64,000 nucleotides of DNA from assembly GCF_004135345.1 (NCBI RefSeq), contig NZ_CP035495.1, forward strand, positions 434,001 through 498,000. Direction: 5' to 3'. A program made the position numbers and the translations under genes. The stretch comes from Xylanimonas allomyrinae. Lineage in GTDB: Bacteria; Actinomycetota; Actinomycetes; Actinomycetales; Cellulomonadaceae. Below, in pieces: positions 842 to 60,995 of this stretch. Position 1 is the stretch's first letter; each line of letters opens with the position of its first letter. Under the pieces are notes generated by a model. It was not told the origin of the DNA, searched no databases, and saw nothing but the letters and a program-made list of their open reading frames with translations.

Positions 842-1626
842 ATGACCACGAGCGCCACCGACCCCGCCGTTCCCGCCCCCGCCGCGTCCTGGTGACGGGG
901 GCCTCGTCCGGGATCGGGGCCGCGACCGCGCGCCGGCTCGCCGCGGACGGCTGGTCCGTCGTCGCGGCCGCGCGCCGCGCCGACCGCCTGGCGTCGTTGG
1001 GCGACGGCATCGAGGCGTACCCGCTGGACGTCACGTCCGACGACGCCGTCGCGGCTCTCGCCGCGCACCTGACGGCGACGGGCGGGCTGGACGCCGTCGT
1101 CAACAACGCGGGCGGCGCGTTCGGGCTCGACCGCGTCGAGGACGCCGACCTGGCCCAGTGGCAGCGCATGTACGACGTCAACGTGCTGGGCGCGCTGCGC
1201 GTGACCAAGGCCGTCCTGCCGCTGCTGCGCGCGTCGGCCGCCGTGACGGGCGGTTCCGACGTCGTCGTGCTGACGTCGACGGCGGCGTACGCGACCTACG
1301 AGGGCGGGTCCGGGTACACGGCCGCGAAGCACGCCGAGCGCATGTTCGCCACGACGCTGCGCTGGGAGCTCGCGGGCGAGCCGTTGCGCGTGGTCCAGAT
1401 CGCGCCGGGCGCGGTCGCCACCGAGGAGTTCTCGCTCGTGCGGTTCGACGGCGACGCCGCCCGCGCGGCGGCGGTGTACGAGGGCTACCAGCCGCTGGTC
1501 GCCGACGACGTCGCGGACGCGATCGCGTGGACCCTGTCGCGGCCCGCGTACGTGAGCATCGACGAGCTCGTGATCCGGCCGCGCGCGCAGGCCAGCAACT
1601 GGAAGACGGTGCGCAACGGCGTGTGA
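842..1626 (+). CDS. Short-chain dehydrogenase/reductase (apparent frameshift near 876-880)
   Basis: A classical SDR of about 261 residues: the Rossmann glycine motif 'VLVTGASSGIG' near the N-terminus, 'NNAGG' after beta-4, the catalytic Ser/Tyr/Lys set as 'VVVLTSTAAY' and 'GYTAAKHA', and a 'PGAVATEEF' loop. Substrate unknown; closest in style to YdfG/serine-dehydrogenase-like NADP SDRs. Read literally, the ATG at 842 frame stops after 17 codons, while the body is open only from 892. Adding one C to the C5 run at 876-880 joins them as 'PAPRRVLVTGASSG'. The -10 element before 842 supports that start. I take the break as a sequence error. Confidence 0.82.
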
Positions 1627-1684
1627 ACCGTCGCACCGACATATCGGCTGGCGGTATCGGGGGCGCGGCCACGGGTGGGTTCGC

Positions 1685-2047
1685 ATGAGTCCACGATGGG
1701 CGGAGCCGGAGCCCTGGGACCCGCCGTGGCGGCCCTTCCCACGGACCCGGTTCGAGCGCTCGGCGCGGTTCTGGGTGAACGCCTACCCGCTGCGGTGGCG
1801 CGAGGCGCACGGCGACGAGCTGCTCGGAGTGCTCGAGGAGGTCGTGCGCGCCGGCGGCGGTTCGCCCCCGCGGCGGCCCCGGCCGGTGACCGGCAGGCTT
1901 CCGCCGCCGTGGGGCGCGTGCGTCCGCCAGGTCGACGGCCGGTCGTCGACGGCCGGTACGATGGCCCGCACAGGCACCGATCCGGCCATCACCGGGGAGC
2001 CTCCGGAAGAAGGGCGGCATCGCCGCTTGGTAGAACCGGACGGGTAG
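1685..2047 (+). CDS. Small protein or gene remnant with a 'YPLRWREAHGDELL' segment
   Basis: The first ~60 codons look real: 'RFWVNAYPLRWREAHGDELLGVLEEV' matches the short N-terminal helix pair found in many actinobacterial membrane proteins, where it precedes transmembrane helices. After about nt 1860 the frame becomes arginine/proline-rich, has no transmembrane segment and runs into the ileS promoter and T-box. The gene therefore seems truncated, or its 3' half was replaced or frameshifted; another C5 run at 1867-1871 could be involved, but adding a base does not restore an obvious protein. I do not know its function. Confidence 0.35.
   Translation: MSPRWAEPEPWDPPWRPFPRTRFERSARFWVNAYPLRWREAHGDELLGVLEEVVRAGGGSPPRRPRPVTGRLPPPWGACVRQVDGRSSTAGTMARTGTDPAITGEPPEEGRHRRLVEPDG
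1957..1962 (+). promoter_or_regulatory. -10 element of the ileS T-box transcript
   Basis: TACGAT lies about seven bases before the first base of the T-box leader, so transcription probably starts near 1969. No good -35 hexamer is visible. Confidence 0.45.
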
Positions 2048-2145: not shown

Positions 2146-2221
2146 GGCCTGCCGGACCGGCAGCGGCGAGCGTCGTCCCCGCAGTGTCCCGCCGCACTCT
2201 CGTTCGAGGAGCACCGCTTCC

Positions 2222-5682: not shown

Positions 5683-7124
5683 GTGAGCACCCAGGAACGC
5701 CGGCAGGACCGCCCGCAGGACCGCCCCCAGGACCGCCCCAGGACCGCAAGGCCGCCCAGGCCGCCGCCGAGGAGGCCGTGGCGCAGGAGTCCCTGCGCGA
5801 GGTGTACCGCGAGATCATGTCGCGCAACCCCGAGCACGACATCGACCCCACCCTCGACCGCGTGCGCCGGGTGCTGGAGCTGCTCGGCGACCCGCAGCGC
5901 GCCTACCGCGTCGTCCACCTGACGGGCACCAACGGCAAGACGTCCACGGCCCGCATGATCGAGTCGCTGGTCCGCGAGCACGGCCTGCGCACGGGCCTGT
6001 TCACCTCCCCGCACCTGACGAGCGTCACCGAGCGCATCCAGGTCGACGGCGCGCCGATCAGCGCGGCCCGGTTCGTCGAGGTGTGGGTCGACGTCGCGCC
6101 GTACATCGGCATGGTCGACCGTGAGTCGCAGGAGGCGGGCGGCCCGCGGCTGTCGTTCTTCGAGGTGCTCACGGTCATGGCGTTCGCGGCGTTCGCGGAC
6201 GCACCCGTCGACGTAGCCGTCGTCGAGGTCGGCATGGGCGGCGAGTGGGACTCGACCAACGTCGCCGACGGCGACGTCGCGGTCGTCACGCCCGTCGGGA
6301 TGGACCACCAGCGGTGGCTCGGGAACACGCTGGAGGAGATCGCGGTCACCAAGTCCGGCATCATCAAGGACGGCGCGACGGCGGTGCTCGCCGCCCAGGA
6401 GGACGTCGTCGCCGCGGTCATGCGCGACCGCGCCGCCGCCGTCGGAGCGCACCTGCTGCGCGAGGGGTTCGAGATCGACGTGGCCGGCAGGCAGGTCGGT
6501 GTGGGCGGGCAGGTCGTCGACCTGCGCACCCCGGCCGGCCTGTACACGGGCATCTACCTGCCGCTGCACGGCGAGCACCAGGCGCACAACGCGCTGCTGG
6601 CGCTCGCCGCGGTCGAGGCCCTGATGTCCGGCGGCGGGGCGCTCGACGCTGGCGTGGTCGAGACGGGCTTCGGCCGCGTCACGTCGCCCGGCCGTCTCGA
6701 GATCGTCCGCACCTCGCCCACCGTGCTGGTCGACGCCGCGCACAACCCCCACGGCGCCGAGGCGCTCGTGGCGACGCTCGACGAGGCGTTCGACTTCACG
6801 CGGCTGGTCGGCGTCGTCGGGATCATGGGCGACAAGGACGCCGAGGCGCTGCTCGCGATCCTCGAACCCGTGCTCGCCGAGGTCGTGCTGACGTCCAACT
6901 CCTCCGCCCGCTCCGCCGACCCGCGCGACCTGGCCGAGATCGCCAACGAGATCTACGGCGAGGATCGCGTCCACGTCGTCGACCGTCTCGACGAGGCGAT
7001 CCAGGTCGCGGCCGACCTCGCGGAGCGCGACGACGCGGTCGGCGTCGGCGTCGGCACGGGCGTCCTCGTCACGGGCAGCGTGGTCACGGTCGCCGACGCT
7101 CGCGTCCTCCTCGGCCGGCGCTGA
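5683..7124 (+). CDS. folC: Bifunctional dihydrofolate synthase/folylpolyglutamate synthase (apparent frameshift near 5736-5739)
   Basis: Mur-ligase-family enzyme that adds glutamate to dihydropteroate and folates using ATP. The P-loop is 'LTGTNGKTSTARM' near residue 80, followed by 'TSPHL', 'FFEVLTVMAF', 'VEVGMGGEWDSTN' and the C-terminal 'VDAAHNPHGAEAL'. The GTG at 5683 fits the leaderless promoter but goes out of frame in a tandem CAGGACCGCCC repeat; adding one C to the C4 run at 5736-5739 restores '...RPQDRKAAQAAAEEA'. Without repair the frame could be entered at a TTG at 5676 or a GTG at 5778. In actinobacteria folC is usually followed by DUF4233 and ndk; here three dha genes intervene. 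Confidence 0.95.
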
Positions 7125-8289: not shown

Positions 8290-8954
8290 ATGGCGCTCGA
8301 CGCCGCGTGGGCGAGACGGTGGGTCGTGGAGTCGGCCGCGGCGATGGCCGCAGCCCGGGACGAGCTGACCGAGCTCGACCGCCAGATCGGCGACGGCGAC
8401 CACGGCGCCAACCTGGACCGCGGCTTCCGCGCGGTCGAGGCCAAGGTCGCCGAGACGCCGTCGCAGGGCCCCGACGGCGCCGCCGAGCACGTGGGCGCGG
8501 TGCTCAAGCTCGTCGCGACGACACTCATGTCGACCGTCGGGGTGCCTCGGGCCCGCTGTACGGGACGGCGTTCCTGCGGGCCGCGAAGGTGACGGCCCGC
8601 GCCGAGCTCGACGCGTCGACCGTCGTCGCGCTGCTCGAGGCGGCGCTCGAGGGCATCGAGGCGCGCGGCCACGCCACGCCGGGGGAGAAGACGATGGTCG
8701 ACGCGTGGCAGCCCGCGGTCGACGCCGCGGCGGCGCTCGGCGGGGACGACGCGGTCGCGGTGCTGCGTGCGGCCGCGGACGCGGCGGACGCGGGTGCGAC
8801 CGCCACGATCCCGCTCGTCGCGACCAAGGGCAGGGCCTCGTACCTCGGCGAGCGCTCCGCGGGGCACGAGGACCCCGGAGCGCGCTCGACGGCGCTGCTG
8901 CTGCGCGCCGCCGTCGCCGCGGCCGACGGCACCGGGACGGCGTCCGAGGGCTAG
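8290..8954 (+). CDS. dhaL: Dihydroxyacetone kinase, ADP-binding subunit (apparent frameshift near 8539-8542)
   Basis: DhaL holds a tightly bound ADP that is phosphorylated by DhaM and then phosphorylates dihydroxyacetone on DhaK. The N-terminal half has the Mg/ADP-binding 'DRQIGDGDHGANLDRGF'; the C-terminal half has 'GPLYGTAFLRAA', 'GHATPGEKTMVDAW' and 'ATKGRASYLGERSAGHEDPGA'. The halves are in different frames. Adding one G to the G4 run at 8539-8542 gives 'STVGGASGPLYGTAF', exactly the family sequence, for a 221-residue protein. The start ATG at 8290 has GGGAGCAGG upstream. Probably intact in the organism. Confidence 0.92.
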
Positions 8955-8964: not shown

Positions 8965-9676
8965 ATGACCGTCGCCCTGGTGCTGGTCTCGCACTCCGCT
9001 CGCCTCGCGCGCGGAGTGGTCGAGCTGGCCGCGCAGATGGCGCCGGACGTCGAGATCGTGCCCGGCGCGGGCACGATCGACGGCGGCCTGGGCACGTCGC
9101 TCGACGTCGTGCAGGGGGCTGTCGAGCGAGCGCTCGCCGGGGCGGACGCCGTCGTCGTGCTCGCGGACCTCGGCTCGGCCGTCCTGACGGTGGAGACGGC
9201 GCTGGAGATCGACGAGGACGAGTGGTCCGGGCGGGTGCACCTGGTGGATGCTCCGTTCGTCGAGGGTGCCGTCGCCGCAGCCGTGGCGGCGCAGCAGGGC
9301 GCGGGCCCCGACGCGGTCATGGCTGCGGCGCGCGAGGCTGGCGAGTCGTTCGCGCCCGCCGCCGGGGCGCCGGGTGCTCCGGCCGACGCCGCCGGTCCCG
9401 TGGCGCACGACGACGAGGACGGCGTCGTGCGCGCGAGCGTGACCGTGCGCAACCCGTTGGGCCTGCACGCACGTCCGGCGGCGCAGCTCGCTCGCGCGAT
9501 CGCCGACCTCGGCGTCCCGGTGTCGGTGGGGGAGCGGACGGGGCGAGCGTCCTGGCGCTGATCGCCCTGGGGCGAAGGGCGGCCAGAATCTCGAGGTCAC
9601 GGCCCGGGGGAGCGGCGCGCGGGCCGCGGTCGACGCCGTCGTCGCGCTCATCGAGGGCGGGTTCGGCGAGGCCTGA
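8965..9676 (+). CDS. dhaM: DhaM phosphotransferase with fused HPr domain (two apparent frameshifts near 9540 and 9569)
   Basis: An EIIA-mannose-type DhaM domain occupies residues ~1-130 with the phospho-accepting His at 10 ('VLVSHSARLARG'), then an acidic/alanine linker, then an HPr domain with 'RNPLGLHARPAAQLA' (His 168). In E. coli, DhaM also carries an EI-like domain; none is present here, so general EI must feed it. The literal frame ends at 9561, cutting the HPr domain. Adding one G to each of the G4 runs at 9540-9543 and 9569-9572 restores 'GASVLALIALGAKGGQNLEV' and the stop at 9676 (237 residues). A GTG at 8956 is an alternative in-frame start. Confidence 0.88.
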
Positions 9677-10790: not shown

Positions 10791-13700
10791 GTGCATCTCA
10801 AGACGCTCACGCTGCGGGGGTTCAAGTCGTTCGCGTCCGCGACGACGCTGAGCTTCGAGCCGGGCATCACGTGCGTCGTCGGACCCAACGGGTCGGGCAA
10901 GTCGAACGTCGTGGACGCACTCGCCTGGGTCATGGGCGAGCAGGGCGCCAAGTCGCTGCGCGGCGGAAAGATGGAGGACGTCATCTTCGCCGGGACCGCG
11001 GGCCGGCCCCCGCTGGGCCGCGCCGAGGTGTCGCTGACGATCGACAACACCGACGGCGCGCTGCCGATCGACTACACCGAGGTCACGATCTCGCGCACGC
11101 TGTTCCGCAGCGGCGGGTCGGAGTATGCGATCAACGGCTCGGGCTGCCGCCTGCTGGACATCCAGGAGCTGCTGAGCGACTCGGGCATCGGCCGTGAGAT
11201 GCACGTCGTGGTGGGGCAGGGGCAGCTCGACGCCGTGCTGCGCGCGAGCCCGGAGGATCGGCGCGGGTTCGTCGAGGAGGCCGCAGGAGTCCTCAAGCAT
11301 CGCAAGCGCAAGGAGAAGGCGCTGCGCAAGCTCGACCAGATGGCCGGGAACCTGGCGCGCCTGACCGACCTGACGGCCGAGCTGCGCCGTCAGCTCGGTC
11401 CGCTCGGCCGCCAGGCGGAGGCCGCCCGCAAGGCCCGCACGGTGCAGGCGGACCTGCGTGACGCCAAGTCGCGGCTGCTGGCCGACGACCTCGCCCAGCT
11501 CGTGGCCCAGCTGGAGGCCGAGCGTGCGGACGAGGCGGCGGTGCGCGAGCGTCAGTCGGCGACGGAGGCGGCGCTCGCGGCGGCTCGCGCCGAGCTGGCT
11601 CGGCTTGAGGTCGCGGCGGCGGGCGCGACGACGGCGGCGTCGCACGCCGGTGACACCTTCCACGCGCTGGCCGCGCTGCGCGAGCGCCTGCGCGGCACCC
11701 AGACGCTCGCCCAGGAGCGTGTGCGCCTGCTGGGCACGGCGGAGCCCGAGCAGCGAGGCCAGGACCCGGCCGACCTCGAGGCGCAGGCCGAGCGCGCTCG
11801 CGCGGCGGAGGCCGAGCTGGTGCGTGAGGTCGAGATCGCGCGTGCGAGCCTGACCGCGGCGGTCGAGCGCCGCACCGCGGCCGAGGACGCCGCCGCGTCG
11901 GCCGAGCGGGAGCTCGCGGCCCTGCACCGGGGGCAGCCGATCGGCGCGAAGGGCTGGCGCGGCTCGCGGGGCAGGTCGCCGCGCGTCGCAGCCGCGTCGA
12001 GGCCGCCGACGCCGAGCTCGACCGCGTCCGCGTCGCGCTGGAGGAGGCCGAGCGCCGTGAGCAGGACGCGACGCGCGAGTTCACGGCCCTGGAGACGCAG
12101 GTGGTCGGCGTCGAGGCGGGCGAGGAGGGCCTCGACGCCGAGCACGAGGAGGCCGCCGACGCCGTCGAGCGTGCCGGCTCGACGGTGGCTGCGCTGGATG
12201 CGGAGGCCGCCGCGGCCGACCAGGATCGTGCGACGTGGTCGGCGCGCGTCGAGGCGCTGGCCCTGAGCCTCGACCGCAAGGACGGCGCCGGTGCGCTGCT
12301 GGCGGCCGACGCCCCCGGGGTGCTCGGCTCGGTCGCCGCGCTGCTGGGCGTCGAGGCGGGGTACGAGGACGCGGTCGCGGCCGCGCTGGGGCCGCTCGCG
12401 GACGCCGTCGTGGTCGCGGACCTGGATGCGGCGGTGGACGCGCTGCGGCTGCTGCGCGACGACGACGCGGGGCGTGCCGGTCTGGTGGTCGGGTCGCGAG
12501 GCGGCGGCGGCGACGCGCCGCGCCCGCTCGAGCCGCCGCCTGGTCCGGTCGCCGGGCGGCTCGTCGTGGACGTCGTGACCGCGCCCGGCCCCGTCGCCGC
12601 CGCCGTCCGCGCGCTGCTGGAGGGTGTCGTGGTGGTCGAGGACCTGGCGCAGGCACGAGCACTGGTCGCCGCGCACCCGCACGTCGTCGCCGTGACGCGC
12701 GCGGGCGATCTGCTCGGTGGGGTGCGCGCCGCCGGTGGTTCGGCCGCTGCGCCGAGCGTGCTGCACCTCCAGGCGGCGCTCGACGAGGCACGCGCGCACG
12801 CCGACGACGCCGCCGCGCGTGGCGAGCGTGCCCGCTTCGCGCTGGTGGGCGCCCGCGAGGAGCTCGACGGCGCGCAGCGCCGCTATGACGAGACGCTCGA
12901 ACGGCTGCACGAGTCGGACGCGGCGCTGGCCGCCGTCGCCGAGCAGCTCGGCACGCTCGGTTCGGCGCAGCGTGCGGCGCGCGCGGAGGCCGACCGGCAC
13001 CGGTCCACGCTCGCGCAGGCCGCCGAGCGGCGGGCGTCCGACGAGGCCGAGCTGGCCGCGCTCGCGCGGCGGCTCGAGATCGCGGAGGCCGAGCCGGGCG
13101 AGTCCGAGGATGCGGTCGCGGCGGCGACGAGCGCGCGCGGGCAGGCGCAGGACGCGGCGACCGCCGCGCGTGCGGCCGAGACGGAGGCACGGCTGGCACT
13201 GCGCACCAGCGAGGAACGTGCGCGTGCGGTCGCGGGCCGCGCCCAGAGCCTTGCTCGCGCCGCCCAGACGGAGCGCGCCGCGCGCGAGCGGGCCGCGGCC
13301 CGCGCCCGCGCCCGCACCGCGCAGGCACTGGTCGCGGCGCAGGTGCGCGACGACGCGACGCTCGCGCTGACGGCGCTGGCCCGGTCGGTCGAGCGCGCCG
13401 CCCAGGAGCGTGCGGCGGCCGAGGAGGCACGCACCGCGCGCGCCCACGAGCTCGACGCCGTGCGCGCCGACGTGGAACGGCTGGCGGGCGAGGTGCGCGA
13501 CCTGACCGACGTCGCCCACCGTGACGAGGTCGCGCGGGCTCAGCAGGTCGCCCGGCTGCAGCAGCTTCAGGAGCGCGCGACCGACGAGCTGGGGACGGAT
13601 CCCGAGGCGCTCGTGGAGGAGTTCGGGCCCCACCGCCTGATCCCGGTGGCGGACCCGGCCGCTCCGGACGGCGACGACGCCCCGGCGCCCGAGGGCCGCC

Positions 13701-14368
13701 CGTACGTGCGCGAGGAGCAGGAGGCACGCCTCAGGCAGGCCGAACGAGCCCTCGCCCGCCTGGGGACGGTCAACCCGCTCGCCCTGGAGGAGTTCGCCGC
13801 CCTGGAGGAACGCCACCGGTTCCTCACCGAGCAGCTCGCCGACCTGAAGAAGTCGCGGCAGGACCTGCTGCAGATCGTCGAGGACATCGACGAACGGGTC
13901 GAGCAGGTGTTCGCCGAGGCGTTCCGCGACACGGCGGCGATGTTCGAGCGGGTGTTCCCGACGCTGTTCCCGGGCGGCGAGGGCCGGCTCGTGCTCACCG
14001 ACCCGTCCGACCTGCTCGCGACGGGGATCGACGTCGAGGCGCGCCCCGCGGGCAAGAAGGTCAAGCGCCTGTCGTTGCTGTCGGGGGGCGAGCGGTCCTT
14101 GACCGCCGTCGCGTTCCTGGTGTCGATCTTCAAGGCGCGCCCGAGCCCGTTCCTCATCATGGACGAGGTCGAGGCCGCGCTCGACGACGTCAACCTGGGC
14201 CGCCTGCTGGAGATCTTCCGGGAGCTTCAGACGCACTCGCAGCTCATCGTCATCACCCACCAGAAGCGCACCATGGAGGTCGCGGACGCCCTGTACGGCG
14301 TGACGATGCGCGGCGACGGCGTGACGACCGTCATCTCGCAGCGCATGCGCGAGCCCGCGGAGGCGTGA
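10791..14368 (+). CDS. smc: Chromosome segregation ATPase SMC (apparent frameshift near 11951)
   Basis: Condensin ATPase that organises and segregates the chromosome. Of about 1192 residues, the N-terminal head has Walker A 'GPNGSGKSN' (31-39), and the C-terminal head has the ABC signature '[17 protein letters not shown]' and Walker B '[14 protein letters not shown]'. Between them are two long alanine/arginine/glutamate-rich coiled coils and a hinge near nt 12300-12720. The frame breaks at 'GAKGW'; adding one G to the GGG at 11951-11953 continues as '[21 protein letters not shown]' into the second part. Two half-genes would lack a working ATPase, so a sequence error is much more likely. The downstream neighbour is ftsY, as in many bacteria. 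Confidence 0.95.
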
Positions 14369-17824: not shown

Positions 17825-17885
17825 GGTTGAGCCTGTCGAGACCACCCCCGAGCGAAGGGGAACGATGGTCTCGACAGGCTCAACC
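17825..17885. repeat. 20-bp perfect inverted repeat spanning the glnD start
   Basis: GGTTGAGCCTGTCGAGACCA (17825-17844) is exactly inverted at 17866-17885, with a CCCC...GGGG pair inside the loop. The core TCGACAGGCT recurs at 19711-19720, so this behaves like a small intergenic repeat family (REP-like). The right arm includes part of the glnD start codon and its first codons ('MVSTGST'). Confidence 0.85.
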
Positions 17886-19657
17886 GTCGGCGACGCGGCC
17901 GGCCGGGGCCCCGTGGTGGGCCTGCGCGAGGAGTTGCTCACGCTGGCCACGACGCTGACCGGCCCGGGCCGGTCGGGCGTGGCCCGCCGCTCGGCGCTGG
18001 TCCAGGCCGTCACCGATCGGCTCGGGGCGCTGTACGCGGAGGCGACAGCCCAGGTCGACGGGTCCGGGCTGGCCCTCGCGGCCGTCGGCAGCCTCGCGCG
18101 CGGCGACCTCGGGCCGATGTCCGACGTCGACCTGGTCCTCGTGCACGACGGTCGCACCCACCCGGCGGACGAGCTCGCTCGGGTCGCCGAGCGGCTCTGG
18201 TACCCGCTGTGGGACTCGGGGGTCGACCTCGACCACGCGGTGCGGTCGCTGCACCAGACGCGCCAGGTCGCGTCGTCCGACCTCGCGGCCGCCGCAAGCT
18301 GGCTCGACGTGCGGCCCGTGGCGGGCGACGCCGTCGTCGTGCACCGGGCCGCGTCGGCGATCCTCACCGACTGGCGGGCCGCCTCCCGGCGGCGCATGCC
18401 CGAGCTGCTCGCCTCGGTCAAGGAGCGTGCGCAGCGTTCGGGGAGCTCGCCTACCTCGTGGAGCCCGACCTCAAGGAGTCGCGCGGCGGCATCCGGGACG
18501 CCGTGCTGCTGGCCGCCCTCGCTGCCACGTGGCTGACCGACCGCCCGCACGGGGCCGTCGACCGCGCGTACGCCCACCTGCTCGACGTGCGCGACACACT
18601 GCAGGTGGTGACCCGACGGCGCACGACGCGGCTGTTGCTCGCGGACCTCGACGAGGTCGCCGCGCGCTGCGGCCACGACGACCCGGACGAGCTGCTCGCC
18701 TCGCTCGCCGAAGCGGGGCGGGAGATCGCCTACGCGCTCGACTCCACGGTGCGCCGGGCCCGTCAGGCGCTTCAGCCGCCGGGCGCGATCCGGCGCACGC
18801 TGGTCGTGCGCGGCCGCCGGACGCCCCCGCGGCTGCGCTCGGCGGGCGACGGGCTCGTGGAGCACGACGGCGAGCTCGTGCTCGCGATCGACGCGAACCC
18901 CGCGTCCGACCCGGTGCTGCCGCTGCGCGCGGCGGCGACGGCCGCGCGCAGCGGGCTGGCGTTGTCGCCCGTCACGGTCGGCTCGCTCGCGCTGGCGGCG
19001 CCTGTGCCCGTGCCCTGGCCTCGCGCCGCTCGCCAGGCGTTCCTTCAGCTCCTGGGCTCGGGGCCCGCGCAGGTCCCGGTGTGGGAAGCGCTCGACCTCG
19101 CGGGCATCGTGACCCGCTGGATCCCCGAGTGGGCGGACGTCCGCAACCGCCCGCAACGCTCGCCGGTCCACCGGCACACCGTCGACCGTCATCTCGTCGA
19201 GACGGTCTCGCGTGCTGCAGGCGTGCGACGCGTTCAGGCCGATCCCGCGGCCGTGCGGTCCGAGGTGCTGCTGCTGGCCGCCGTCCTGCACGACATCGGC
19301 AAGCGCCGCGGGGCGCTCCATGCCGACCACGCGCTCGAGGGCGCGCGCCTGGTGCCCGGCATCCTGGCGCGCATGGGCGTCGACGACGCCGTGGCGCGCG
19401 ACGTCGAGCGGCTCGTGCGCCACCACCTGGTGCTCGCCGACCTGGCGACCCAGCAGGACCCGGACGACCCGGCGACCGTCGCGGCCCTGCTGACGGCGGT
19501 CGACCACCGCGGGGACCTGCTCGCCGAGCTGCGCGCGCTGACGCAGGCAGATTCCTCGAGCCTGGGGTCGAAGAACGGGTGGACGCCGTGGCGCGCCCGG
19601 CTCGTCGACGGGCTCGTCGCGCGGGCACGCGAGGCGCTGGAGGCAGGGGCCGGCTGA
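17865..19657 (+). CDS. glnD: PII uridylyl/adenylyltransferase without ACT domains (apparent frameshift near 18434)
   Basis: Modifies and demodifies PII. The ~597-residue protein has the nucleotidyltransferase motif '[16 protein letters not shown]' (75-90), a helical GlnD/GlnE region ('[20 protein letters not shown]') and the HD domain '[19 protein letters not shown]' near residue 475. It ends right after the HD domain, so the two C-terminal ACT domains that sense glutamine in E. coli GlnD are absent; no coding sequence for them follows before ffh. One base is missing near 18434: 'ERAQ' must join '[12 protein letters not shown]'. The ATG at 17865 lies at the repeat's right arm; AAGGGGA precedes it, and the frame is also open to a GTG at 17823. 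Confidence 0.9.
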
Positions 19658-24209: not shown

Positions 24210-25007
24210 GTGCGCATCGACGTCGTCACCGTCTTCCCCGACTACCTCGCGGCCCTCGACCTGTCGCTCATCGGCAAGGCGCGTCAGGCAGGACTGCTCG
24301 ACCTGCGCGTCCACGACCTGCGCGAATGGACCACCGACCGGCACCGGACGGTCGACGACACCCCGTTCGGCGGAGGCGCGGGCATGGTGATGCGGCCCGA
24401 CGTGTGGGGCTGCGCGATCGATGCCGTGCTGGACGGTGACCCCGCCGGGCACCTGGTGATCCCGACGCCGTCGGGTGAGGTGTTCACGCAGCGGCACGCC
24501 GAGGCGCTCGCCGCCGAGCAGCACCTGGTCGTCGCGTGCGGCCGCTACGAGGGGATCGACGCCCGCGTCGCCGAGCACTATCGCGCCGCGGGCCGGCGCG
24601 TGAGCGAGGTGTCCATCGGCGACTACGTGCTCAACGGGGGAGAGGTCGCGGCGCTCGTGCTCGTCGAGGCGGTCGGGCGGCTGCTTCCGGGCGTCGTCGG
24701 CAACCCCGAGTCGCTCGTCGAGGAGTCGCACGGAGCCGCCGGGCTCCTGGAGTACCCCGTCTACACCAAGCCGCCCGTGTGGGACGGGCTGGAGATCCCT
24801 GAGGTGCTGCTGTCGGGGCACCACGCGCGCATCGACCGCTGGCGGCGCGACCGTGCCCTGGAACGCACCGCCCAGCGGCGCCCCGACATGGTCGCGGCGC
24901 TCGACGTCGCGCGCCTCGACAAGCACGACAGGGCGCTGCTCGCCGACCTGGGCTGGGACGAGGTCGACGGCCGGCTTCGGCGCCGGCCGGGCGCTGTGGC
25001 AGAATAG
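24210..25007 (+). CDS. trmD: tRNA (guanine-37-N1) methyltransferase
   Basis: SPOUT methyltransferase that makes m1G37 and prevents +1 frameshifting. The 265-residue protein shows '[13 protein letters not shown]', '[28 protein letters not shown]', the knotted SAM site '[15 protein letters not shown]', '[31 protein letters not shown]' and '[30 protein letters not shown]'. GTG start. Directly follows rimM in the usual order. Confidence 0.97.
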
Positions 25008-25642: not shown

Positions 25643-26419
25643 GTGACAGAATCCGTCCCCGTGACACAGCCGCAGCCAGACCCCGAAAGCACGCCGATGC
25701 CGGCCCGCCCGGTGCGGTCCGCCGGGGTCTCCCGGCACCGGGCGCCGAAGAAGGGTCTGGGGCTGCTGCGCGAGACCGCCATCATCGTCGTGAGCGCGCT
25801 CGTGCTGTCCTGGCTGATCAAGTCTCTGCTCGTGCAGGCCTTCTTCATCCCGAGCGCGTCCATGGAGGACACGCTCGAGGTCGGCGACCGCGTCATGGTG
25901 TCGCGGCTCGTGCCGCGCGTGCTCGACCTGCACCGTGGCGACATCGTCGTCTTCCGTGACCCGGGCGGCTGGCTGCGGCCCTACGAGCCGCCGGACCACG
26001 GGCCGATAGGCAACGCGATCGGGCGCGGTCTGACCGCCGTCGGGCTGCTGCCCCAGGACACCGGCGAGCACCTCATCAAGCGCGTGATCGGTCTGCCCGG
26101 CGACCACGTGACCTGTTGCGACGCGGACGGCAAGATCGAGGTCAACGGCACCGCGATCACCGAGACGTCGTACATCAAGCCGGGCTCGATCCCCAGCCAG
26201 GTCCCGATCGACCAGACCGTGCCCGAGGGCATGCTGTTCGTCATGGGCGACAACCGGCAGGACTCGGCCGACTCGCGGTTCAACACCAGCAAGCCGGGTG
26301 GCGGGTTCGTCCCGATCGACAACGTCGTCGGGACGGCGTTCGCGACGGTGTGGCCGTTCGACCGCGCGACGTGGCACCGCAACCCCGGCTCGGTCTTCGA
26401 GCAGGTGCCCGAACCGTGA
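25643..26419 (+). CDS. lepB: Signal peptidase I
   Basis: Membrane serine protease that removes signal peptides. The 258-residue protein has a proline-rich cytoplasmic tail, one membrane helix (~45-65, '[25 protein letters not shown]'), the Ser box '[10 protein letters not shown]' (catalytic Ser 73), the Lys box '[11 protein letters not shown]' (Lys 146) and '[14 protein letters not shown]'. I chose the GTG at 25643, eight bases after GGGAGAG; GTGs at 25634 and 25661 are in frame. Stop overlaps the rnhB start (GTGA). Confidence 0.95.
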
Positions 26420-37415: not shown

Positions 37416-38578
37416 ATGGCCGGCACGAGCCTCCCCTCCCCGGCGGTCCGTCCCTCTGACGAGACCGCGCCGATCCCGCTCCAGATGGCGCCGCGCCATC
37501 GTGCGCGCCCGCCGCGTCACTTCGCGGACCTGACGGTCGCCGAGCGGGCCGAGGCGCTGGTCGCGCTGGGCCACAAGGCGTTCCGCGCCAAGCAGCTCGC
37601 GACGCACTACTTCACGCACTTCACCTCAGACCCGGCCGACTGGACGGACATCCCGGCGGCCGCGCGTGACGAGATCGCCGGGAGCCTGTTCCCGCCGCTG
37701 CTCACGGCGCGGCGGACGCTGCAGGCCGACAAGGGCACCACGGTCAAGACGCTGTGGGGCTTGTTCGACGGCACGCGCATCGAGTCCGTGCTGATGCGCT
37801 ACCCGCGCCGGGCCACGCTGTGCATCTCGAGCCAGGTCGGGTGCGGGATGGCCTGCCCGTTCTGCGCGACCGGGCAGCTCGGGTTCACGCGCAACCTCTC
37901 GGCAGCGGAGATGCTCGAGCAGGTCCGGTCGGCGATGCGGTCCCTCGCCTCGGGAGAGATCCCGGGCGGCCCGACGCGGCTCAACAACCTGGTCTTCATG
38001 GGCATGGGTGAGGGACTCATCAACTACCGGGCCATCATGGCGTGCATCCGGGCGCTCGTGGCCGAGCCGCCCGAGGGGTTCGGCATGAGCGCTCGCAACA
38101 TCACGGTCTCGACGGTCGGCCTGGTGCCCGGTATCGCCAAGCTCGCGGCTGAGGGCCTGCCGCTGACGCTCGCGCTGTCGCTGCACGCGCCGGATGACGA
38201 CCTGCGTGACGAGCTCGTGCCGATCAACACGCGATTCGGTGTCGACGAGGCGCTCGATGCCGCGCGTGCCTACTTCGATGCCACCGGCCGCCGCGTGTCG
38301 ATCGAGTACGCGCTGATCAAGGACATGAACGACCAGGCGTGGCGTGCCGACCTGCTCGGCACGAAGCTCAACGCACGTGGCAAGGGCTGGGTCCACGTCA
38401 ACCCGATCCCCTGAACCCGACACCCGGATCGATCTGGACGGCGTCGGAACGTTCGGTCGAGGACGAGTTCGTCGCTAGGCTGCGGGGACACGGGATTCCG
38501 ACAACGATCCGTGACACCCGCGGCTCGGACATCGACGGGGCGTGCGGGCAGTTGGCAGCGGAGGATGACGACGCATGA
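37416..38578 (+). CDS. rlmN: 23S rRNA (adenine-2503-C2) methyltransferase RlmN (apparent frameshift near 38408-38411)
   Basis: Radical-SAM enzyme making m2A in 23S rRNA and tRNA. The CxxxCxxC cluster motif is '[12 protein letters not shown]' (Cys 143, 147, 150). Read literally, the protein stops at 38414 after 'GWVHVNPIP', losing the C-terminus. Adding one C to the C4 run at 38408-38411 continues as '[23 protein letters not shown]' to 38578, recovering '[10 protein letters not shown]' with the methyl-carrying cysteine (codon at 38542) that family members need for catalysis. The full protein has 387 residues, the normal length. Confidence 0.94.
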
Positions 38579-39872: not shown

Positions 39873-40699
39873 TCAGCAGCGCGGCGCGACCGGCAGCCCC
39901 GTGCCGGTGATGAGGTACGCGTCGGAGACCCAGTTGCCCGGTCCGATGCGATACCAGAGGTTCGTCGTCCCGCGGGTGCCGGCGACGGTCGTCCCGCGCT
40001 CGTGGCACAGCAGCGGCACGCGTGCGGTGTTCGCGGCGAGCCCGACGGCGGCGTAGCCCGTTCCCGGCCCCGAGCGCACGTTGAGCGGACGGGCAGGCGA
40101 GGCGACGACACCGGTGCGGGCGTTGCCCTGCCACAGGTAGGTGACGTCGACGGGAGCGTTGGTGGTCAGCCCGAGGCCGTCGGTGAAGGTGCCGTCGGCA
40201 AGGTCGATGCCGGACGGGTTGAGCACGGTGCGCCCCCGCTCGTCGAGGCCGCCGGCGTACCCGCCGGTGAAGGCGGCCTGCGCCGCCGGTGTGCCGTGCG
40301 GAAGGTCCTGCGCGAAGTGCCGGGTGGTGCTCCAGTAGTCGTCGCGGGTGTTCCACGGCCCGACGTCCCACACCGGCGCGTACTCGCAGCGTCCCGTCAC
40401 GGGCGCGCACACCCGGACGGAGTAGGCGCCGCTGCCGTCGGCGGACAGGGCGCTGCGCGAGGGCAGCGCGACGAAGTGGTCGCCCGGGACGATGACGTGC
40501 CCGTTGGCGGTCGTGCCTCCGACCAGGCCCTCGCGCGTGGCGAAGACGCGGTGGGTGCCGCCGTCGGCCTCGTCGGCCGCAGCGGGGGAGCGAGCGCCAC
40601 GGTGGTGCCCGCCGTCAGCAGCGAGACGACGCCGGCGAGGACGGTCAGTCCGCTCCGGTGCCGGGACCCTCGGGTGGGTCGCCTCTGGAGAGTGAGCAT
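39873..40699 (-). CDS. Secreted double-psi-barrel-like protein with C-terminal SH3 domain (apparent frameshift near 40584-40588)
   Basis: A signal peptide ('[22 protein letters not shown]') is followed by a conserved actinobacterial secreted domain, '[18 protein letters not shown]...DHFVALPS' and '[16 protein letters not shown]', whose 'DVGPWN' resembles RlpA/barwin double-psi barrels. The last ~70 residues are a bacterial SH3 domain ('[18 protein letters not shown]', '[16 protein letters not shown]'). The signal peptide and body are in different frames; adding one C on the coding strand (G5 run at 40584-40588 on plus) gives '[15 protein letters not shown]'. About 275 residues. Likely cell-wall associated. 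Start ATG at 40699; an upstream ATG at 40723 is in frame. Confidence 0.8.
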
Positions 40700-42037: not shown

Positions 42038-42990
42038 TCAGCGCGACGCCCACCCGTGGTCGACGGGGCCGTGCCCCGTCCACGGGGGGAGCCCCCGAGC
42101 AGCCCGGTGCCGCCGACCCGCAGCGACCTGCCGGCCTCCAGCGCGTGCGTGAGGTAGTCCTTGGCGGCCCGGACGGCCGACGGCCAGCCGTCGGCCCGCG
42201 GGCGCAGCACCGCGCACGCCGAGCTCAAGGTACAGCCGGTCCCGTGCGTGTGGCGCGTCTCGACCCGCGGGGCCGCGAGAGCCAGCACGTCGCCGTCCGG
42301 CCCCGCGAGGTGGTCCACGGCGTCGCCGGTCCGGCCGGCCGGGCGCAGATGACCGCCCTTGACGAGCGCCCAGCGGCCGCCGGCCGGAGGGGCCACACCC
42401 TGGCGCCCTGCCAGCGCCCGCAGCGCATGCGCCTGGTCGGCCGCCTCGGCCGCGTCCCTGGCCGGGTCCACGCCCAGCAGCACCGCGGCCTCGGCGAGGT
42501 TGGGCGTGACCAGGTCGGCGAGCGGCAGCAGGCGCTCGCGCAGCACGGCCTCGGCGTCGTGCGCGAGCAGCCGGTCGCCCGACGTCGCGACCATGACCGG
42601 GTCGAGCACCACCACGGGTGCGGGCACCCCGGCGCGGGCCGCGGCCGCGCGCAGCCGCTCGAGGGCGTCCGCCACGGCTCCGGCCACGGCCGCGTCGCTC
42701 GTCATGCCGATCTTGACGGCGTCGACGGCGACGTCGGCCAGCAGTGTGTCGAGCTGGGCCGTCACCATGTCCGCCGGGACCGCCTGGACCCGGGTGACCC
42801 CGACCGTCGACTGGGCGGTGAGCCCGGTCAGGACGGCGCAACCGTAGCCGCCCAGCGCGGCGAAGGTCTTGAGGTCGGCCTGGATGCCCGCGCCGCCCGA
42901 GGGGTCCGACCCGGCGATCGTCAGGGCGACGGGGGGATGGCCCGCCGGGCGTCCCGCCTCCGGCCCGTCGCCGTGACCGCGCGCGGTCAC
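42038..42990 (-). CDS. thiD: Hydroxymethylpyrimidine (phosphate) kinase (apparent frameshift near 42084-42096)
   Basis: Phosphorylates HMP and HMP-P to HMP-PP. Core motifs: '[29 protein letters not shown]', '[16 protein letters not shown]', '[13 protein letters not shown]', 'ALVKGGHL' and '[14 protein letters not shown]'. The frame then runs into low-complexity Arg/Ser sequence; adding one base in the G5/C6 runs (plus 42084-42096) gives '[22 protein letters not shown]' and a stop at 42038. 'GHGPVDH' is the normal ThiD ending. GTG start at 42990 overlaps thiE stop by GTGA. Expressed from the minus-strand TPP riboswitch. About 317 residues. Confidence 0.93.
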
Positions 42991-44750: not shown

Positions 44751-46144
44751 ATGGCGTCTGCCGTCCCCGTTCGTGAACCTGTCCGTCAGTCCGTCGAGGC
44801 GCCGGTGACGCTGGACGCGCCCGCCGTGCGCGTCCACCGCGGGCGCGACCACCTGGGGCTGTGGGCGAGCCTCGGGGTGAGCCTGCTCGTGCCCGTCGTC
44901 GCGGTCTACTTCGTGCCCACGTCGCTCGCGGCGACGTTCGTGGCCATCGCCGTCGGCACGCTCGTCGGCTGCGGGCTGCTCGGGGCGGTCGCCGCGATCG
45001 GCGCCCGCACCGGGGAACCGGCCATGGTCGTGTTCCGCGGCCTGTTCGGCGTGCGCGGCTCGTGGGTGCCGACCGCGCTCAACGTGCTCCAGTGCCTGGG
45101 CTGGGCCGCCTTCGAGGTGTGGATCATCGCGCGCGCGGCCGCCGGGGTCTGGCCCGAGGTGCCGCACGCGGTCTTCGCGGTGGGCGCGGGCGTCGTCGCG
45201 ACGGCGATGGCGCTGCGCCCGCTCGGGTCGGCGGCGCTGCTGCGGCGCGTGGCGATCGTCGTCGTCGTGGCCTGCTCGGCCTACTTCCTGGTCGACGCCG
45301 CACGCCGTCCGCTCGGTCCGGTCGGGGCCGGGGGATGGCGCGGGCTGTGGACCAACGTCGACCTCGTGGCGTCGATGTCCGTCTCGTGGATCCCGCTCGT
45401 GGCGGACTACACGCGCCACGCCCGGCCGGGCACAGCGCGGCGCACGGGAGCCGCGGTCGGCGTCGGCTACGGGCTCGCCTCGGCGGCGTTCTTCTGCGTC
45501 GGGGTGCTCGGGCTGCTGGCGTACCAGCCGTCGGACGGCGATCTGGTGGCCGCGCTGCTCGCGGTGCCGGCGGGCGCTCTCGCGCTCGCGATCCTCGCGG
45601 CCGACGAGGTCGACCAGGCGTTCGCCAACGTGTACTCCACGGCCGTGAGCCTGCAGAACGTCGCGCCGCGCGCGGACCGGCGCGTGCTGGCGCTCGCGGT
45701 CGGGGCGGTCGCGACGGCGCTGGGCGTGCTCGTCGGCGACGGGTACGCGTACGAGGGCTTCCTGCTGCTCATCGGCGCGGTCTTCACCCCGCTCGGAGCG
45801 GTGCTCGTGGTCGACCACTGGGTCGTGCGGCGGGGCCGGTACGACCTGTCGGCGGCGGCGCCCCTCGGCGGTGGCTGTTCGTGCCGTGGGTCGCCGGTTT
45901 CGCCGCCTTCCAGCTCGTGACGCCGACCTTCGTCGCGCTGTGGCCGGCCTGGGGCGAGGCGTGGGCGCGGGCGCAGGGCGCGCTCGGCGTGCCGGCGGAC
46001 AACGGGTGGTCGGGCGTCGTCGTCGCGCTCGTCGTGGCGGGGGCGCTCACGCTCGCGGTCGCGCCGGCCGACCGGTGGGCCGCGCGCCGGCACGGGGGCT
46101 CGGCGCGCGACGTTCACGAGGTCACCACGACTGCCGTCCAGTAG
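44751..46144 (+). CDS. cytX: NCS1-family transporter, probable HMP transporter CytX (apparent frameshift near 45861-45864)
   Basis: A membrane protein of about 464 residues with ~12 hydrophobic helices, matching the purine-cytosine permease (NCS1) family: 'LGLWASLGVSLLVPVVAVYFVP', 'GEPAMVVFRGLFGVRGSWVPTALNVLQCLGWAAFEVWIIA', 'SVSWIPLVADYTRHAR', 'YSTAVSLQNVAPRADRR'. The TPP riboswitch in its leader points to hydroxymethylpyrimidine uptake, hence CytX. The last two helices are in another frame; adding one C to the C4 run at 45861-45864 gives 'SAAAPPRRWLFVPWVAGFAAFQ' and a stop at 46144. Confidence 0.88.
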
Positions 46145-48723: not shown

Positions 48724-49640
48724 GTGGGCTTCCGGCAGGTTGCCGCAGGGCTGGGGCGCGACGCCGCGCGCGTCCTCGGGCCGGACGACCTCCCCGAGGC
48801 GCTGGCGCTGTGCGCGAGTGACCCGGTCTCGGCCGTTCTGGCGGCCTCGCGGCTGGAGATCGCCGCACGCGCAGGCCTGCCCGCCGCGGGTGGCCAGGTG
48901 TGGGGGTGGCCCACCACGGGGCCGCTGCGCGCGCTGTGCTGGGCCGGCGCGAACCTGGTTCCCGTGGTCCCGGCCTCGCTCGGGGCTGACGCCGCGGAGG
49001 CCGTGGGGGCGTTCGTGCGAGCGGCTCGCGCCCACGGCCGTCGTTCGTCGTCGATCGTCGGGGAGTCGGATGCCGCGCTCGCGCTCTGGGCCGGGCTCGA
49101 ACCCTCGTGGCCGACCGCGCGCGAGGTGCGCCCGCACCAGCCGTCGCTCGCGATCGCGCGCGACCCCGACGTCGAGCCGGACCCGCGCGTGCGGCTGACC
49201 CGCGCCGAGCAGCTCGACGTGCTGATGCCTGCGTGCATCGCGATGTTCACCGAGGAGGTCGGCTACTCGCCGGTCGCCGGCGGGGCACGGCGTACCGGGA
49301 GCGGGTGCGCTCGCTGGTCACCGAGAGCAGGTCGTACGTGCGGCTTGCGGTGCGCACGGGCGACCCCTATGCGCGCCCGACGGGTCCGATGGTCGAGTTC
49401 AAGGCGGAGCTGGGCGCGATCGCGCAGGGCGTCGCGCAGGTGCAGGGCGTGTGGGTCGATCCGGCCGTGCGGGGGCGAGGGTTGTCGGAGGGCGGCATGG
49501 CGGCCGTCGTCGTCGATGCGCGGCTGCGTGTGGCGCCGGTCGTCTCGCTCTACGTCAACGGGTACAACGAACGTGCGCTGCGGGCATACCGCCGTGTGGG
49601 GTTCGAGCAAGTCGGGACCTTCGCCACTGTTCTCTTCTGA
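48724..49640 (+). CDS. GNAT-family acetyltransferase (apparent frameshift near 49282-49285)
   Basis: About 305 residues: an N-terminal domain ending '...REVRPHQPSLAIARDP' (DUF4081-like, common in actinobacterial proteins beside ispG) and a C-terminal GNAT fold with 'GVWVDPAVRGRGLSEGGMAAVV' (acetyl-CoA P-loop) and 'VSLYVNGYNERALRAYRRVGFEQVGTFATVLF'. The frames meet at 'YSPVAGG'; adding one G to the G4 run at 49282-49285 gives 'VAGGGTAYRERVRSLV'. The acceptor is unknown. It starts 13 bases after ispG. Confidence 0.87.
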
Positions 49641-54569: not shown

Positions 54570-55666
54570 TCAGCTCGCGAGCTCCGGCATGCCCGGGAAC
54601 GCGACCGGCGCCGCGCCCCAGGCGTCGAGCGTGAGCGCCGCGTCGACGAGCAGGTCGACCAGCACGCCGCGGGTGCTCGCGGCGGTCGTGCCCACGAGGC
54701 TCGCGTAGCTTGTCGCGAGCCCGTCCTGGAGGGAGCGCACGAGCGTGGCGTCGTCGTCGCTGCGCGGGATCGCGTACGCGACGCGACGGGGGTCCTGCTC
54801 GGTCCCGCTGACACCTCCGAGCACGGCCCATGCCTCGGCGCGCTCGCCGTGCACGCGCGAGAGCGCGAGCAGCCGGGTGCGTTCGTCCCCGCCCGCTCGC
54901 GCCGCGCGCACCTCGAGCGCGTACCGCGCGGAGTCCTCGCCGAGGACGAGCGCGCGGTAGTCCTCGGCGGACAGGCCTGCGGGCGGCACGGAGTCCTGGG
55001 CGCCCGGTGCCGTCGTCGCCACGGCGCCGGGCTTGCTGGGGGACGGGCTGGGCGAGGGCGACGCGGGGGACGCGGGCTCCGGGACGACCGGGCTCGCCGG
55101 CGCAGGGCCGGGGACGCCCACGAGTCCCGCGAGCCGCGTGGCCGAGACGGCCTGCGCCGCGCTGATCGAGGCGAGCAGCCGGGCGAGGTCGCCGTCCGAC
55201 GTCGTCGTCGCAGCCGTGCGGCTGCGGCCGGCGGCGTCCATGAGCGCGCCGACGACGTCGGCGGGGCGGCCGGTGCGGGGCTCTGCTCGGCGGCGGCGGT
55301 GTCGGGGTCGCCGGGAACGTCCGGAACGAGCGTGGGCTCGGGGTCGAGGCCCGAGTCGTACGGCCCGCCGAGGGCATCGACGTGCGCGTGCCCGGCGTCC
55401 GCGACTCGCGCGAGCTCGGCCGCGACCGGCTCGGGCAGTCCCTCGGTGCCGTGCGCCGACTCGGCGAGGTCGGCGACCTTGCGCGCGTCGTCGGCGGCCG
55501 TGCGCCGCACCAGCTCGAGCGCGTCCGGCACCGGCTCCGCAGGTGGCGGCGTCTCGAGCCGGACACCACAGCCGGCCAGCACGCCGAGGACGAGGAACGC
55601 CGTGAGCGCGCGGAGGAACCCGGCGTGGCGGCGGTCGCGGGTGGCGGGGAGCGGCTGGAACGTCAT
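54570..55666 (-). CDS. Lipoprotein with ferritin-like DUF4439 domain (apparent frameshift near 55263-55280)
   Basis: About 365 residues. The N-terminus has a lipobox ('FLVLGVLAGCG'), then an Ala/Asp/Glu-rich region, a Ser/Pro linker ('PSPSPSPSKP') and a C-terminal four-helix ferritin-like segment, 'LSAEDYRALVLGEDSARYALEVRAA' to 'GVLVDLLVDAALTLDAWGAAPVAFPGMPEL', as in DUF4439 proteins such as Rv2844. The two parts are in different frames; one extra G on plus (C on the coding strand) in the runs at 55263-55280 joins them as '...APAAPADVVGALMDAAGRS'. Location between proS and rimP is conserved. Confidence 0.82.
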
Positions 55667-57542: not shown

Positions 57543-57878
57543 GTGACCGGGCCGCGCGCCCAGAGTCCAGCACGCTCCCGCACCCCCTCACCGGCCCCCG
57601 TTGTCGGTCCGGTGCGCACGTGTGTCGGATGCCGGGTGCGCGACTTGCGGTCGGCACTCCTGAGGCTGGTCCTCGTGCCGGACGCCGCGGGCGGGGCGAA
57701 GCCTCGCGTCGCGGTCGACGAGCGCAAGGCCCTGCCGGGACGCGGTGCGTGGGTTCACCCCACGGTCGCATGCCTGGACCTCGCCGTCCGACGGCGGGCC
57801 GTGCCGCGCGCGCTGCGCGTGGACGCCCCGCTCGACCTGACGGAGGTCCGGGACTGGCTGGAGTCCGCCGACCGTTGA
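57543..57878 (+). CDS. ylxR: YlxR family (DUF448) RNA-binding protein
   Basis: A 111-residue protein with the family motifs '[23 protein letters not shown]' and '[29 protein letters not shown]'. YlxR proteins bind RNA and have been linked to RNase P and gene regulation in other bacteria. Its place between nusA and infB is standard. GTG start fits the -10 element. Confidence 0.92.
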
Positions 57879-58074
57879 CCACACGGTCACCTGCACGTCT
57901 GGCGCCCCGGCGCCGACGGTTCCCGACCGGGGCCACCGCGCCTCGGCCGCACCACGCGTACGTCGACAAGGAAGCGGGTCAGAAGCCGATGGGCACCCGA
58001 TGAGTCCCCAGCGATGAGTACTCGGTACTAACCACGGTCCACCCTGTCTTGGGGAGGGCCGAGACAGGAGAGAA

Positions 58075-60995
58075 GTGGCGAAGGTCCGCGTGCACGAGCT
58101 TGCCAAAGAGCTCGGCGTGACTAGCAAGGCCCTGCTGGACGATCTGAAGGCCGCGGGGGAGTTCGTCCGCTCGGCCTCCTCGACGCTCGAGGCGCCGGTC
58201 GAGCGCATGATGCGTGAGAAGCACAAGAGCGCTGCCCCGGCGTCCTCGCCGGCACCCGCCGCGCCTGCGCCTCGCGCCAAGGCGCCCGCCCCGGCTGCGG
58301 CGCCCGCACCTGCCGAGGCAGCCGCACCCGCTGCGGCCCCGGCCCCGGCACCCGCTGCTGAGGCTCCCGCTCCGGCGGCTTCCGCTCCGGCAGCTCCCGC
58401 TCCGGCGGCACCCGCCCCGGCGGCGCCTGCCGCTGAGGCCACCGCACCCGCCCGGCCCGCACCGGCCGCGCGTCCGGGTGCCCCGCGCGCCCCGCGGCAC
58501 CCCGGCCGGCCGGCAACGCGCCGCGCCCCGGAGCCCCGCGTCCTGCGGGCGGCGAGCGTGGCGGGCGTCCCGGTGCCCCCCGCCCGGGCAACAACCCCTT
58601 CGCCCCGTCGCAGGGCATGCCCCGTCAGGGCGGACGCCCCGGCGGCGGTGCCCCGCGCCCGGGCAACAACCCCTTCGCGCCCTCCCAGGGGATGCCGCGT
58701 CCGGGTCAGCGTGGCGACCGTGACGGCGCGCGCAATGAGAACGCCCCCGCGGCGTCGGCGGGCGAGCGTCCCGGCGGCCCGCGTCCCGGTGGTCCCCGCC
58801 CCGGTGGCCCGCGTCCCGCGGCGCCGCGTCCGGGCGGTCCGCGCCCGAACCCGGGCATGATGCCCGGCCGCACCTCGATGCCGCGTCCGGGTGAGCGCCC
58901 GGCCGGTGGCGCGGGCGGCGGTGGCGGCCGTGGCCGACCCGGTGGCGGCGGCGGCGGGTACGCCGGTCGCCCCGGCGGCGGTGCTCCTGGTGGTGGCGGC
59001 GGCGGTTTCGCCGGTCGTCCCGGTGGCGGCGGTGGCCGTGGTGGCGCCGGTCGCGGCTCCACGCAGGGCGCGTTCGGTCGCGCCGGCGGTCGTCCGGTGC
59101 GCGGGCGCAAGTCGAAGCGCGCGAAGCGTCAGGAGTTCGAGGCGATGCAGGCGCCGTCGCTGGGCGGCGTGTCCGTCCCGCGCGGCAACGGCTCGACCAC
59201 GATCCGCCTGCGTCAGGGCTCGTCCCTGAACGACTTCGCCGACAAGATCGACGCGAACCCCGCGTCGCTGGTCACGGTGCTGTTCCACCTCGGTGAGATG
59301 GCCACGGCGACGCAGTCGCTCGACGAGGCGACGTTCGGCGTCCTCGGCGAGGAGCTCGGCTACAAGATCGAGATGGTCTCGGCCGAGGAGGAGGACCGCG
59401 AGCTGCTCGGGGCCTTCGACATCGACCTCGACGCCGAGCTCGAGGCGGAGTCCGACGAGGACCTCGCCCCGCGCCCGCCGGTCGTCACCGTCATGGGTCA
59501 CGTCGACCACGGCAAGACCAAGCTTCTCGACGCCATCCGTTCGACGGACGTCGTCGCGGGCGAGGCCGGCGGCATCACCCAGCACATCGGTGCCTACCAG
59601 ATCCGCACCGAGCACGAGGGCAACGAGCGGGCCATCACGTTCATCGACACCCCGGGCCACGAGGCGTTCACCGCCATGCGTGCCCGTGGTGCCCAGGTCA
59701 CGGACATCGCGATCCTCGTGGTCGCGGCCGACGACGGTGTGATGCCCCAGACGATCGAGGCGCTCAACCACGCCCAGGCGGCCGGTGTGCCGATCGTCGT
59801 CGCGGTCAACAAGGTGGACAAGGAGGCTGCGAACCCGGCGAAGATCCGCCAGCAGCTCACCGAGTACAACCTGGTCGCGGAGGAGTACGGCGGCGACACC
59901 ATGTTCGTCGACGTCTCGGCGAAGAACCGCATGGGCATCGACAACCTCCTCGAGGCCGTCCTGCTGACCGCGGACGCCGCCCTCGACCTGCGGGCCAACC
60001 CGGACAAGGACGCGCGCGGCGTCGCGATCGAGGCCAACCTCGACCGCGGGCGCGGTGCCGTTGCCACCGTCCTGGTGCAGTCCGGCACGCTGCACGTCGG
60101 CGACGCGATCGTCGCGGGCACGGCCCACGGCCGCGTGCGTGCGATGTTCGACGAGCACGGGGACGCGGTCGACGCCGCCGAGCCGGCTCGCCCGGTGCAG
60201 GTCCTCGGCCTGAGCTCCGTGCCCAGCGCGGGCGACACGTTCCTGGTCGCCCCCGACGAGCGCACGGCCCGCCAGATCGCCGAGAAGCGTGAGGCCGCCG
60301 AGCGTGCCGCCCTCCTGGCCAAGCGCCGCAAGCGTGTCAGCCTCGAGGACTTCACGAAGGCGCTCGAGCAGGGCAAGGTCGAGACCCTCAACCTCGTCAT
60401 CAAGGGTGACGTGTCCGGTGCCGTCGAGGCACTCGAGGACGCGCTGCTCAAGATCGACGTGGGCGAGGAGGTCGAGCTGCGCGTCATCCACCGCGGCGTC
60501 GGCGCGATCACGCAGAACGACGTGAACCTGGCCACGGTCGACAGTGCCGTGATCATCGGCTTCAACGTCAAGTTCGGCGAGCGTGTCGAGGAGCTGGCCG
60601 ACCGCGAGGGCGTCGAGGTCAAGTTCTACTCGGTCATCTACCAGGCGATCGAGGACGTCGAGGCAGCGCTCAAGGGCATGCTCAAGCCGGAGTTCGAGGA
60701 GGTCCAGCTCGGGACCGCCGAGATCCGCCAGGTGTTCCGTTCCTCGAAGTTCGGGAACATCGCCGGTTCGATCATCCGCTCGGGCACCATCCGACGGAAC
60801 TCGAAGGCGCGCGTGCTGCGTGGCGGCAAGGTCGTCGGGGACAACCTCTCGATCGAGTCGCTGCGCCGCGAGAAGGACGACGTCACCGAGGTCCGCGAGG
60901 GCTTCGAGTGTGGCATCGGCCTCGGGTCGTTCAACGACATCACCGAGGGCGACATCATCGAGACGTTCGAGATGCGCGAGAAGCCCCGCGCGTGA
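58075..60995 (+). CDS. infB: Translation initiation factor IF-2 (apparent frameshift near 58500-58503)
   Basis: GTPase that brings initiator tRNA to the ribosome. About 973 residues: IF2_N module ('[31 protein letters not shown]'), a ~330-residue linker first Ala/Pro-rich and then Gly/Pro/Arg-rich ('[14 protein letters not shown]' twice, '[13 protein letters not shown]'), and the G domain with '[15 protein letters not shown]' near 474, 'DTPGHEAF' and 'NKVDK', then the C-terminal domains. The N-terminal and main parts are in different frames; adding one C to the C4 run at 58500-58503 joins them as '[15 protein letters not shown]'. ACAGGAG precedes the GTG. An essential gene, so the break is almost surely an error. 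Confidence 0.96.

Follow-up and report, generated by a model that had tools for sequence, protein, structure and literature searches.

The window analyzed here, a 64-kb stretch of bacterial DNA (G000:C1:434001-498000, GC content 74%), contains 13 genes that appear to break frame at 14 sites through the loss of one base. Our analysis indicates, with a probability of about 97%, that these breaks are homopolymer-contraction consensus errors of the source assembly (G000; 3.85 Mb, two contigs) and that the genes are intact in the cell. This is an artefact of an already known kind. The conclusion follows from four observations. First, the breaks are single-base losses without gains. Second, they lie at homopolymers, and more often at longer ones. 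Third, they are absent in four of five related genomes. Finally, a loss of the same kind is seen in one of three ribosomal RNA (rRNA) operons, so that non-coding DNA is also hit, and unequally among near-identical repeats. The first-pass annotation had already ascribed the breaks to homopolymer contraction in the assembly, and all four observations bear it out. The base caller or the consensus step would have called one base too few in G/C homopolymers about 4 to 7 bases long, and long-read base calling without full polishing is the probable cause; a long-read origin, also suggested by that annotation, is plausible and fits an assembly of this size in two contigs.

One-sided losses in the source assembly and its relatives

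The comparison set consisted of G002, G008, G010 and G005 from the same genus and G018 from the same family. These five relatives are largely syntenic with the window, and their infB genes are 83 to 91% identical to the window at the DNA level. Comparison with close relatives had been proposed in the first-pass annotation, and local alignments of all 14 sites against the syntenic DNA showed, for 11 of them, that the window clearly lacks one base; DNA alignment alone was not clear at 5736, 42084-42096 and 58500. We also carried out a blind scan, in which genes called in the five relatives were aligned to the window by a frameshift-aware protein-to-DNA aligner (frameshifts allowed at a cost) and the sites were not supplied. 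A stop-to-stop frame scan tried first had been noisy, because antisense frames match too at 74% GC, and was dropped in favour of this procedure.

The blind scan reported 16 clusters, 12 of which were sites of the first-pass list, every one a loss (Table 1). The remaining four were called with one relative apiece (a loss at 25752 and gains at 24211, 53980 and 55837), and the 53980 gain matches, by position, a loss in the G008 sequence itself. The infB site was missed because the gene caller had trimmed the start of this gene; when full-length infB references were used, all five relatives gave one loss at the standard penalty, and with G010 at the lowest penalty two gains were fitted in place of one loss. 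Under a strict rule (at least two relatives, at least 60% of those available and at least 40% identity on both sides), 10 frameshifts were kept in the window, all of them losses, whereas 876, 5736, 55263 and 58500 failed. By the blind scan and the strict rule, every consensus frameshift detected in the window was already on the first-pass list. Judged on these alignments, 13 of the 14 sites appear well or fairly backed and the folC site weakly. Some of the coordinates first given for the sites were up to 22 bases off (9540 for 9528, 11951 for 11929 and 18434 for 18440).

We then considered losses and gains in other parts of G000. All five strict-rule frameshifts in a second region (550-610 kb) and all five in a third (four stretches of 20 kb each, next to two rRNA operons at around 1.7 and 3.06 Mb) were losses, giving a total of 20 losses and no gains (two-sided sign test, 1.9e-6), as the first-pass claim of losses only would have it. 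This total was obtained from 149,399 bp covered by at least two relatives, out of 204 kb taken, and corresponds to 1.34 per 10 kb of covered DNA. On the other hand, three regions of G002, three of G010 and the first region of both G018 and G005 together had no strict-rule frameshift in 424,818 bp, versus 56.9 expected at the G000 rate. In G008, seven were found in 166,294 bp, again all losses with no gains; this one-contig assembly shows the same defect in a milder form. Clusters failing the strict rule were not counted (3, 0 and 3 in the three parts of G000, and 1 to 5 per part in the other targets).

Errors of alignment or gene calling might have produced the breaks by themselves, and the cut start of infB and the four single-relative clusters are cases of this kind. 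However, the same pipeline gave no consensus calls in four relatives, and the rRNA losses described below do not depend on gene calling. This explanation is already contradicted by the controls and has hardly any probability left.

Extrapolation from the consensus errors, supposing that 88% of the genome is coding, suggests about 450 false coding breaks in G000 despite its completeness rating of 99.99%. Pseudogene counts, claims of gene loss and protein sets derived from this assembly would mislead; those from G008 would do so to a lesser extent.

Losses in rRNA operons and at G/C runs

Three rRNA operons are present in G000. Operon 3 is short by one G in six G-runs that are intact in both operons 1 and 2. 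By position, 16S and the spacer each contain one of these losses and 23S contains four, and all four 23S losses hold against G002 as well. One of them lies within CCGGGGATAAC, which we take to be the loop beside A2451 in the peptidyl-transferase centre; among the 12 operons compared across four genomes, this motif is intact in 11, operon 3 being the sole exception. Substitutions between the G000 operons number one or two per pair. Among the relatives, the G008 operons show single-base losses of G and C within runs relative to one another, plus a few further differences close to one end. Between the G002 operons there is a difference in an AC repeat and a single substitution, and those of G010 differ by substitutions and several short mixed indels, one of which alters a G-run.

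These losses in non-coding DNA are the decisive evidence for an artefact. Translational recoding cannot explain them, because rRNA is untranslated and frameshifting cannot cure its losses. A single faulty operon among repeats also resembles published examples of errors that escape polishing (PMC8812927). Thus, comparison of rRNA operon copies within one assembly offers a simple test for contraction error that needs no gene annotation.

Analysis of run length was based on 18 events, namely 13 of the 14 window sites (without infB) and the five of the second region. As claimed in the first-pass annotation, the events are located at G/C runs: 17 of the 18 have a G/C run of at least 4 no more than 10 bases away, versus 12.9% of random positions, so this clustering is not due to chance. 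In the third region, four of five events adjoin such a run. Some window positions were entered at the run itself, and for 5736 the first-pass position was used; the raw blind-scan positions point to the same runs in almost every call, the exceptions being 55246 and 55273 (two relatives), which lie by another run. Assuming that each missing base came from the adjoining run, the inferred loss by original run length was 1 of 846 for runs of 4, 8 of 188 for runs of 5, 8 of 28 for runs of 6 and 1 of 1 for runs of 7. These rates are low estimates, because the denominators include non-coding runs, where losses are invisible to the method. The longest run beside each of the 18 events consists of G or C (13 G and 5 C on the plus strand). 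A strand preference was considered and dropped, as the Gs lost from operon 3, which is encoded on the minus strand, are Gs of the minus strand itself.

It might be argued that the losses are real and that the proteins are rescued when the ribosome or the polymerase slips at the runs, since 17 of the 18 sites adjoin a run and the broken genes retain a pattern of selection (see below). However, untranslated rRNA shows a like loss in one of three operons, the relatives carry the broken genes in one frame, and some 450 such sites would be required. Moreover, slippage would have to occur at G/C runs of 4 to 6 bases, a short length for such an event, which further disfavours this possibility. We regard it as the least probable of the explanations considered here.

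Alternative explanations and points against an artefact

Mismatch to G002 at codon positions 1, 2 and 3 was 0.099, 0.084 and 0.331 in the broken genes (n=11) and 0.084, 0.065 and 0.271 in the other genes (n=46, including the unbroken part of infB). The codon-position pattern of selection is therefore kept in the broken genes. In addition, an in-frame stop was found only once, with G008 as reference, and never with the other four relatives.

The best rival to an assembly artefact is true slippage, that is, real losses in the G/C runs of a lineage without MutS-type repair, leaving fresh pseudogenes. No MutS_I match was found in the three genomes searched, versus 11 of 14 control genomes, NucS_C was present in all three, and fresh pseudogenes would still show an intact pattern of selection. 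However, G002 and G010 have the same repair make-up without any consensus frameshift, and slippage should add bases as well, whereas gains are absent (0 of 20). Because of these two facts we give this rival little weight; it is very improbable, if somewhat less so than the others. It would also have to accommodate damage to infB and other core genes and six losses in one rRNA operon, one of them presumably in the peptidyl-transferase region. The first-pass annotation had called several of the genes essential in most bacteria. To our knowledge this is generally so for infB and folC, but smc, glnD, rlmN and thiD are essential only in some bacteria or conditions. Pseudogene decay, with neither gains nor (apart from the one noted) in-frame stops and with the pattern of selection kept, fits poorly with the rRNA losses. 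A living actinobacterium without MutS-type repair that carries hundreds of real contractions, including those in rRNA, and survives by slippage or as mixed populations appears extremely unlikely.

Several points weigh against an assembly artefact. The case is built on the printed assembly alone, one assembly of the strain. In one spacer run, operon 2 is itself short by a G that operons 1 and 3 retain, and operons 1 and 2 also differ from each other; operon 1 has an extra C and an AC that are absent from operons 2 and 3, and part of the difference between operons 1 and 2 may be real. One event in the second region and one in the third adjoin runs of just 3. The broken genes are somewhat more diverged than the others, and the codon-position pattern that they keep would also be expected of very fresh breaks. 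The folC site is the weakest of the 14: none of the four aligning relatives called a loss at the standard penalty and one (G005) did so at a lower penalty. At the start of folC (5683-5745), units of about 12 bases are repeated in tandem and encode a recurring Gln-Asp-Arg-Pro motif, and a short unit at the break site supports a loss at 5736. Finally, long G/C runs are not clearly scarce in the window as a whole, where runs of at least 5 number 17.0 per 10 kb (14.9 in G008, 17.1 in G002, and 20.6, 21.1 and 23.0 in the other relatives).

It was also observed that G/C runs of at least 7 occur neither in the window nor in the syntenic 80 kb of the five relatives (six sequences). In the genes of the four frameshift-free relatives, 11 to 18 such runs would be expected per region on the basis of a shuffle preserving proteins and codon usage, and runs of 6 numbered 9 to 17, versus 34 to 39 expected. 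G010 does have a run of 7 within its rRNA spacer region. Given that no MutS_I match was found, the scarcity of long G/C runs may reflect avoidance of slippage-prone runs.

Consensus errors of this type have been described before. Residual errors of long-read assemblies are reported to be mainly homopolymer indels that cause frameshifts, and errors within repeats frequently survive polishing (PMC8812927); false deletions are reported to outnumber other errors, chiefly where a run of four to five bases precedes them (PMC12007338). The breaks in G000 resemble the cases given for Polypolish (PMC8812927) and Kastor (PMC12007338) in being single-base homopolymer indels, mostly false deletions, that cause frameshifts and persist in repeats. 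In contrast with the Kastor example of 59% GC (PMC12007338), where A/T runs prevailed, G/C runs are affected here, as expected at 74% GC. Our results also agree with those of Cooley and Wright 2024 (PMC11017572), in which apparent pseudogenes were assembly errors and a high pseudogene count marked a poor assembly; whereas their counts extend over 126,564 genomes, individual sites and rRNA copies were compared here.

Break sites and affected genes

The sites and genes are listed in Table 1. Gene identities were drawn from the proteins of the relatives (NCBIfam and Pfam matches), and pieces of the window were scanned separately (ten pieces, 5 of the 13 genes). The two pieces of dhaL cover adjoining Dak2 positions (2-44 and 48-173), and in smc the first piece covers SMC_N positions 1-135 and the second positions 135-219 together with the hinge. 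Successive domains are also matched by the pieces of glnD (nucleotidyltransferase, then GlnD_UR_UTase/HD) and by those of the DUF4081 and GNAT gene. The rlmN match to TIGR00048 scored 287.5 bits, just below the cut-off of 290, and its short end piece had no family match.

Table 1. Run sites of the 14 apparent one-base losses in the window and the genes affected. Strand is that of the gene; support is the number of relatives calling the loss, for infB with full-length references.
Run (printed length)	Position	Strand	Gene	Extent	Support	Remarks
C (5)	876..880	+	short-chain dehydrogenase gene	842-1623 (aligned)	G002	sole relative reaching the position; all listed models below curated cut-offs
C (4)	5736..5739	+	folC, near start	5683-7124		weakest site
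G (4)	8539..8542	+	dhaL	8290-8927 (aligned)	5/5	
G (5)	9528..9532	+	DhaM-like gene, first break	8965-9673 (aligned)	5/5	
G (4)	9569..9572	+	DhaM-like gene, second break	8965-9673 (aligned)	5/5	
G (5)	11929..11933	+	smc	10791-14368	5/5	
G (4)	18440..18443	+	glnD	17877-19654 (aligned)	5/5	NCBIfam match below curated cut-off
C (4)	38408..38411	+	rlmN	37416-38572 (aligned)	5/5	
G on plus strand (5)	40584..40588	-	unnamed gene	39876-40621 (aligned)	3/3	weak GsmA match, below curated cut-off
adjoining G and C, either may be short	42084..42096	-	thiD	42041-42957 (aligned)	2/2	
C (4)	45861..45864	+	CytX-like NCS1 transporter gene	44826-46141 (aligned)	2/2	below curated cut-off
G (4)	49282..49285	+	DUF4081 and GNAT acetyltransferase gene	48736-49637 (aligned)	5/5	
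G-runs	55263..55280	-	unnamed gene	54576-55633 (aligned)	5 relatives	one flank poorly conserved; no match in NCBIfam
break, run not pinpointed	58477..58516	+	infB, low-complexity N-terminal part	aligned from 58084, stop 60995	5/5	

The glnD protein of G002 covers just positions 20-568 of the 782 in its best NCBIfam model, and the glnD genes of G002 and G008 have roughly the same end point. It therefore seems, from these sequences, that the C-terminal part of glnD is missing in both relatives as well.

No transfer RNA gene was found within the 64-kb window, and a viral-contig search using a translated stretch of the window gave no match. The second contig of G000 is about 32 kb long, as calculated by subtraction of lengths. 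For the unbroken part of infB, the nearest named match in a single genome-collection scan, from which very near records were possibly omitted, was Flavimobilis rhizosphaerae (82% at the protein level), which is placed in Jonesiaceae, Micrococcales.

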